Translations under genes and position numbers: made by a program
The notes under the pieces: generated by a model
Told to the model about the DNA's origin: nothing
Seen by the model: the letters and a program-made list of their open reading frames with translations, nothing else
Database searches by the model: none
Origin: Lentisphaerae bacterium GWF2_49_21
GTDB taxonomy: Bacteria > Verrucomicrobiota > Lentisphaeria > Victivallales > GWF2-50-93
DNA: 64,000 nucleotides
Direction of reading: 5' to 3'
Assembly: GCA_001804805.1 (NCBI GenBank)
Contig: MHBH01000005.1
Coordinates: forward strand, 124,001 to 188,000
Shown here: positions 40,981 through 55,299 of the stretch, in pieces
Position numbering within the stretch: position 1 is the stretch's first letter
Layout: the number at the start of each line of letters is the position of its first letter

Positions 40981-41164
40981 CGCGGGTTTTCCAACCCGCG
41001 AAGAGGCGGACCAGTCTTTGAATTGATTATTGATGAGCGAAGCGAATCTTTGGAGTGCGGCAGCCCTCTGCCGCTATGGATTCCGGATCCAGGGAATATT
41101 TAGAAATAAATGCAAAGCGGCACAGGGGTGCCGCAGTCCAAAGTCAGGCCGGAGCGCCTGACAT
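40981..41164. repeat. chain of mini-hairpins with TTGGAGTGC frame, copy 1
   Basis: Starts with the bead CGCGGGTT-ttcc-AACCCGCG (40981-41000). From 41030 it has TGATGAGCGAAGCGAATC, TTGGAGTGC, bead GCGGCAG/CTGCCGC (41057-41074), bead GCGGCAC/GTGCCGC (41117-41134), then CAGTCCAAAGTCAGGC and GCGCCTGACAT. The start and end words recur at 55147-55299 and, reversed, at 43708-43856, while the beads differ. Confidence 0.65.
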
Positions 41165-43707: not shown

Positions 43708-43856
43708 ATGTCAGGCGCTTTGGACTGACCGTGGGAGTGCGTGTGACGAAGTCACCGCTTTGTGTCGCAAAATTCATTTTGCGAATCTTTATTACGAGAA
43801 ATAAATTTCTCTGAACAAGGCGGTAACAAGTTCCCGCACTCCATGTGATTCGTTCT
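43708..43856. repeat. chain of mini-hairpins with TTGGAGTGC frame, copy 2 (reversed)
   Basis: Reverse orientation relative to 55147. Beads are GTGAC-gaa-GTCAC (43743-43755), CGCAAAAT-tc-ATTTTGCG (43766-43783) and GAGAAAT-aa-ATTTCTC (43796-43811), framed by ATGTCAGGCGCTTTGGACTG and GCACTCCATGTGATTCG. A 28-base fragment of the 8389-type element is at 43900-43927. No gene is seen in 43631-44050. Confidence 0.65.
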
Positions 43857-45299: not shown

Positions 45300-45424
45300 T
45301 ATGATGCGAAGCATCCTTGGAGTGCGGTAGCTTGCTACCGCCTTTTGAAGACAAGCTTGCTTGTCATTATAATTACGCGGAGCGAGCTCCGCTAAACAAG
45401 GCTGAAGCAAGCTTCAGCACTCCA
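45300..45424. repeat. chain of five perfect mini-hairpins
   Basis: In 116 bases five hairpins follow each other: GATGC-gaa-GCATC (45303), CGGTAGC-tt-GCTACCG (45325), GACAAGC-tt-GCTTGTC (45350), GCGGAGC-ga-GCTCCGC (45377) and GCTGAAGC-aa-GCTTCAGC (45401). Four share a core AGC-NN-GCT. TTGGAGTGC and GCACTCCA frame the last four. It occupies nearly all of the space between hydF and the next gene. Confidence 0.8.
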
Positions 45425-55146: not shown

Positions 55147-55299
55147 TTGATGAGCAAAGCGAATCACTTGGAGTGCGGGATTTTATTACCGCTTTGTTCA
55201 GAGAAATTCATTTCTCGTTTAAGTTTCGCAAAATGAATTTTGCGACACAAGGCGGTGATGAATCACCGCAGTCCAAGGTCAGGCCGGAGCGCCTGACAT
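55147..55299. repeat. chain of mini-hairpins with TTGGAGTGC frame, copy 3
   Basis: TTGATGAGCAAAGCGAATC leads into TTGGAGTGCGG, then beads GAGAAAT-tc-ATTTCTC (55201), CGCAAAAT-ga-ATTTTGCG (55227) and GCGGTGAT-ga-ATCACCGC (55252), and the tail CAGTCCAAGGTCAGGC...GCGCCTGACAT. It shares its ends with 41030-41164 and two beads with 43708-43856. No gene is seen in 55099-55447. Confidence 0.7.

Follow-up and report, generated by a model that had tools for sequence, protein, structure and literature searches.

The window analysed here, a 64,000-nucleotide stretch of a Lentisphaerae bacterium genome, carries the co-directional genes hydF and a lipoprotein gene, and between the two sit five hairpins, at 45303-45315 (5 bp, loop of 3), 45324-45341 (8 bp, centre of 2), 45350-45365 (7 bp), 45377-45392 (7 bp) and 45401-45418 (8 bp). 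The initial annotation had placed these hairpins correctly to within 1 nt, and the AGC-NN-GCT core that it had seen is indeed common to four of the five, those with stems of 7-8 bp. The hairpins stand far above shuffle expectation: the region has 5 with stems of 5 bp or longer and 4 with stems of 7 bp or longer, compared with means of 0.47 (maximum 3) and 0.04 (maximum 2) in 3,000 first-order shuffles, and just one of 2,555 tiles of 125 nt across the window, the hairpin region itself, contains four hairpins of at least 7 bp. Folding tells the same, with z = -5.6 as DNA and -5.9 as RNA and 0 of 200 shuffles equally stable.

Architecture of the unit

Four of the hairpins make up one 105-nt REPIN-like unit (45319-45423), GGAGT-HP1-HP2-HP3-HP4-ACTCC, bounded here by GGAGTGC...GCACTCC. 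Its boundaries are found again across 22 intact copies, which come from four genomes of the genus. On the plus strand, a guide-like GGAG tetranucleotide (45319-45322) stands one base ahead of the stem of HP1, the left REP hairpin (GCGGTAGC-TT-GCTACCGC, 45324-45341). The left inner hairpin HP2 (GACAAGC-TT-GCTTGTC, 45350-45365) and the right inner hairpin HP3 (GCGGAGC-GA-GCTCCGC, 45377-45392) follow, and the right REP hairpin, HP4 (GCTGAAGC-AA-GCTTCAGC, 45401-45418), is inverted, that is, on the minus strand, as is its GGAG tag, read as CTCC on the plus strand at 45420-45423. A feature that the initial annotation does not mention is a long interrupted foldback in which HP1 can pair with HP4; its two 44-nt arms (45318-45361 and 45381-45424) are 75% complementary. 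The plan common to the copies is GGAGT, HP1, a short linker, HP2, a spacer, HP3, a short linker, HP4 and ACTCC, 103-121 nt in total.

The remaining hairpin, GATGCGAAGCATC at 45303-45315, had been taken for the first member of the array; it is instead a separate flanking module, which also precedes the REPs of two RAYT genes of the host (on C63 and C67). Outer hairpins of this sort accompany the 22 copies on one side, both or neither, 13 on the left and 10 on the right. Those beside GGAG ends are of a few recurring types, GATGCGAAGCATC, GTCAGGC..GCCTGAC, GAGCG..CGCTC and TGCGAATT..AATTCGCA, as seen at 45303-45315 of the window and in the flanks of L004, L014, L029, L077, L073 and L154.

Copies in the host and its relatives

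The array is not peculiar to the gap between hydF and the lipoprotein gene: copies lie elsewhere as well and the unit is a dispersed, apparently mobile repeat. A sequence search of the 5.9 Mb draft host genome gave 48 matches, and reading 36 regions with their flanks yielded the fixed plan of the unit. At least 11 host copies are intact with all four hairpins, three of them within the window: the copy described above, starting at 45319, a second of the AAT-core class with a degraded HP1 (43734-43842, plus strand), and a third of the same class with a GTCAGGC..GCCTGAC outer hairpin (55170-55274, minus strand). The window also holds a two-hairpin REPIN of the same GGAG/GGAC class (41052-41139, plus strand), and the host further has interrupted copies and three- and two-hairpin relatives in which the GGAG/GGAC ends are kept. 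The REP head pattern TTGGASTGCGG..CCGC occurs at 57 sites in the host genome, the reversed control pattern at none. Copies occur in many varied contexts and in either orientation, and by a rough overlap check most overlap no long ORF, a few overlapping putative ORFs of 82-267 codons.

The four-hairpin unit was also found in three sister species, in the genus of Lentisphaerae bacterium GWF2_50_93, itself one of the three (G001); the genomes compared are drafts. A second palindrome-like repeat, of the type GCCGTGTCGGGCGTAGCCTC..GGCGAAGACTGAG or TCCGCC..TCGC..GCGACA, interrupts a hairpin in L013, L015, L016, L017, L024 and the units downstream at L154 and L156, which suggests that hairpin tips are the target of some element.

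Clearly shared flanking genes across sister species were seen at just one of the element loci compared, the hydF region, and the units there differ. In G001, hydF and the lipoprotein gene are neighbours separated by about 110 nt of other sequence in place of the unit, and a partial unit is found beyond the lipoprotein gene. G002 lacks the lipoprotein gene, and a RAYT-bearing unit lies between a fumarase/aspartase-like gene and hydF. The position is thus variable, the unit being absent from this gap in G001 and placed elsewhere in G002; no target-site duplication or base-exact empty site could be defined from the sites compared. We note that the gene missing at the G002 locus (L089/L152) is the lipoprotein gene with an FGE-sulfatase domain present in the host and G001, and that a RAYT remnant lies there between the fumarase/aspartase-like gene and hydF.

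Conserved pairing and a concerted core

The 22 intact copies from the four genomes were aligned and fall into two classes, 11 with an AGC core and 11 with an AAT core. MAFFT shifted HP2 of the AAT class by one column, so the pairing was recounted with hairpin centres anchored. On that count 96.4% of 660 pair cells hold standard pairs, compared with 75% (maximum 81% in 2,000 trials) when arms were dealt out among the copies, and 24 of the 30 stem pairs are changed on both sides in at least one copy, the independent compensating events being fewer than such cell counts suggest because many of the two-sided changes separate the AGC and AAT classes. Changes within a class also occur, exemplified by GCGGTAGC, GCGGTACC and GCGCAAGC in HP1 and by C-G, A-T and T-A at the second pair of HP3. 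On the MAFFT alignment, where HP2 is understated, the covariation score was 0.383 versus 0.161 (0/500), and all slid versions scored lower. The few uncompensated stem changes are as expected of ageing copies. The earlier proposal that the beads diverge while staying paired is therefore borne out by both the pair cells and the two-sided changes.

What was copied is the whole four-hairpin unit, as a block, and not single beads from one another within a local array, as had been supposed. HP2 of one copy resembles HP2 of other copies and not the neighbouring hairpins, and the same holds for HP3; the beads within one unit have only the loop-proximal core in common. When hairpins within a unit are compared, the three bases nearest the loop agree 83% of the time, versus 58% (sd 2.6%) with hairpins dealt out among units (0/20,000), a figure that is no formal probability because the copies are related by descent. 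Between the classes this core differs in step, from AGC-NN-GCT to AAT-NN-ATT in all four hairpins together.

RAYT genes flanked by the units

RAYTs (TnpA_REP) are HUH/Y1 single-strand nucleases. The host genome has 20 Y1_Tnp matches, which include a close group of three RAYTs (C63, C2 and C67; 56-59% identity to the first), each of which has GGAG/GGAC hairpins in inverted orientation on its two sides. At host C2 and in G001, G003 and G002 (WHHSPPH-type RAYT), the RAYT gene is framed by four-hairpin units, whether intact or interrupted. The sister-species RAYTs that start with WHHSPPH, those of L154 (the G001 locus, identical in sequence to L141), L156 and L158, have such units on either side, some of them interrupted, and the G004 RAYT has a four-hairpin unit downstream and double-hairpin ends upstream. 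As to the proteins, two RAYTs score 86.7 and 80.3 bits against the NCBIfam model of REP-associated tyrosine transposases, NF047646 (cut-off 80), a model that the WHHSPPH-type RAYTs pass. Pfam PF01797 is above its cut-off too, and the host group matches PDB 4er8, a solved TnpA_REP. The IS200 transposase model gave one RAYT 23.7 bits, below its cut-off of 55, and the other RAYT had no hit to it among the matches listed.

The AGC-core four-hairpin unit is tied to a RAYT only through a truncated gene in G002 and the upstream side of L173. Directly upstream of hydF in G002, HP2 and HP3 of an AGC-core unit are separated by a truncated RAYT (MKWHHRPAH...). A complete relative at L173, from another family of the phylum, has immediately upstream GGAGT-GCGGCAGCTTGCTGCCGC-TTTGCTTT-GCGAAGCTTGCTTCGC, two AGC-core hairpins, and a further RAYT relative, L150 in a Sumerlaeota genome, comes with AGC-core hairpins carrying GGAG tags. 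Judged from these sequences, the AGC-core unit resembles either a transposon of this sort reduced to its two ends by loss of the gene or a REPIN of that system, and the RAYT that moved the window copy may have been of this kind. An intact RAYT of the type that flanks the four-hairpin units of the sister species was not found in the host assembly, a draft that is 95% complete (best 47% identity), so the local copies may be orphans and the present-day mobility of the window copy is only putative.

GGAG tags beside RAYTs in many phyla

The association extends well beyond the genus. Across 58 RAYT loci surveyed in named genomes of many phyla, GGA[GC]-tagged hairpins numbered 142 in 43.6 kb of near flank, compared with 13 in 56 kb of more distant sequence and 3.4 in shuffles; they are present at 45 loci, were not found at the other 13, and at 32 of 55 lie on both sides. 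A count beside RAYTs of the wider group gave 72 flanks with GGAG and 2 with GTAG, and the GGAG-tagged class adjoins RAYTs in Lentisphaerae, Verrucomicrobia, Planctomycetes, Chlamydiae and other phyla. The more alike two RAYTs are, the more alike their REP cores tend to be, a weak but clear correlation (Mantel r = 0.23, a value reached in 1 of 2,000 permutations), in agreement with published RAYT-REP co-evolution (PMC2817692).

Discussion

We are confident that the feature between hydF and the lipoprotein gene is a single copy of a REPIN-type mobile repeat that is non-autonomous and owes its spread to a RAYT. Like the REPIN/BIME units and RAYTs of gammaproteobacteria (PMC3116915, PMC2817692), it consists of short extragenic palindromes with a 5' tetranucleotide, arranged as an inverted pair of REPs that makes a foldback unit; its stem-loops are repeated mostly between genes (the 48 matches and 57 REP heads, extragenic by the rough ORF check), the same repeats stand on either side of RAYT genes (host C63, C2 and C67, and sister genomes), and the stems of different copies diverge by compensated changes and still pair. 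It differs in having GGAG or GGAC one base before the stem in place of the GTAG or GTGG directly 5' of the stem in published REPs (PMC2817692, PMC6006769), in two further inner hairpins, in matching cores in all four hairpins, and in extra outer hairpin modules. By analogy, the unit appears to work like a REPIN although it lacks the tag that a strict definition requires. The two features that set the unit apart from published REPs are the GGAG/GGAC tag and the inner hairpins with cores like those of the outer ones, as if one protein reads all four.

A role in directing where cleavage falls is ascribed to the REP tag and has been backed by experiment in one system, and cleavage at CT has been proposed to be chosen through the tag's third and fourth bases, A and G (PMC8266576); GGAG retains both bases, so that CT cleavage would be predicted here as well. 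Palindromic repeats with GTAG or CGTC tags, some in the PVC superphylum, and GTAG repeats in a verrucomicrobium have been described (Di Nocera 2013, PMC3733652), but the GGAG tag of the unit here is unmentioned there; nor did we find mention of a GGAG tag with REPs or RAYTs in the literature searched, an absence that is no proof. IS200/IS605 elements resemble the present system in having a Y1 transposase and subterminal hairpins preceded on the 5' side by a guide tetranucleotide. Their ends, however, are described as having one hairpin each (PMC6006769), whereas here each end has two and the gene stands between REPIN-like units, and the proteins are of RAYT type, above the NF047646 cut-off and below that of the IS200 model.

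How such a unit might move can be sketched as follows. When the region becomes single-stranded, for example as lagging-strand template, each half of the unit would fold into its hairpins and the whole unit would fold back. The RAYT would read the hairpins through the loop-proximal core and the GGAG tag just 5' of the first stem, cut beside the unit and join it elsewhere, usually between genes. The inner hairpins are probably part of the transposon ends, two hairpins per end, and might serve as further binding sites for the same RAYT; additional sites of one protein would explain why all four cores change together.

Other origins of the feature need to be weighed against this RAYT-spread repeat. 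A structured RNA element kept for gene regulation in the hydF leader or at the 3' end of the lipoprotein gene, such as an attenuator, a terminator or a protein-binding array, would suit a unit that sits between co-directional genes and has a stable RNA fold. Against it, the copies lie in many contexts and both orientations, the unit is absent between the same two genes in G001, and an Rfam search returned only chance miRNA matches far below gathering scores, so that we regard a primary regulatory role as improbable. REPs are known to serve secondarily as terminators or mRNA stabilisers, and by analogy such a secondary use of the unit is possible.

An even smaller chance is left for a MITE of a classical DDE transposon, with TGGAGTGC and GCACTCCA as its terminal inverted repeats: a dispersed element of about 105 nt with short terminal inverted repeats would look much like one, but units of like design stand on both sides of Y1 (RAYT) genes in several genomes, no target-site duplication was noticed in the flanks of the copies, and internal hairpins with conserved pairing would be unexpected. 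We give just as little credence to the local bead array of the initial annotation, in which single hairpins were duplicated in tandem and then diverged. The common AGC-NN-GCT core and the even spacing speak for it; against it, the beads are position-specific across copies and recur as a four-hairpin block, and the two- and three-hairpin units that do exist keep their GGAG ends.

Returning to the RAYT-spread repeat, the concerted core is its surprising part, as it ties four separate palindromes of one unit to a common reader. Perhaps these units form a separate, GGAG-tagged class of REP transposition units with a pair of hairpins at each end, all four being read through their shared loop-proximal core by a single RAYT dimer or higher assembly; we offer this as a tentative idea and rather doubt it at present. 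If it were true, the core would be a specificity code that has to change in all four hairpins at once, and each unit would record its transposase. In the literature searched, biochemical tests of REP recognition are confined to GTAG-tagged repeats, and the GGAG-tagged multi-hairpin class offers natural variants with which the separate contributions of tag and hairpin core to specificity could be tested.

Two minor observations concern other loci. At L182 and L103, in other genomes, RAYTs are flanked by three-hairpin units with GGAG ends and similar GC-rich cores, so multi-hairpin units occur beyond this genus. In the host, the frames of the Y1 genes L050/L051 (contig C76) and L053 (contig C67) read through short repeats, RAGARRSQEEMEIS and TGVSPVINETETGRRPVP; these have the appearance of translated REPs that belong to additional REP/RAYT systems of this genome.
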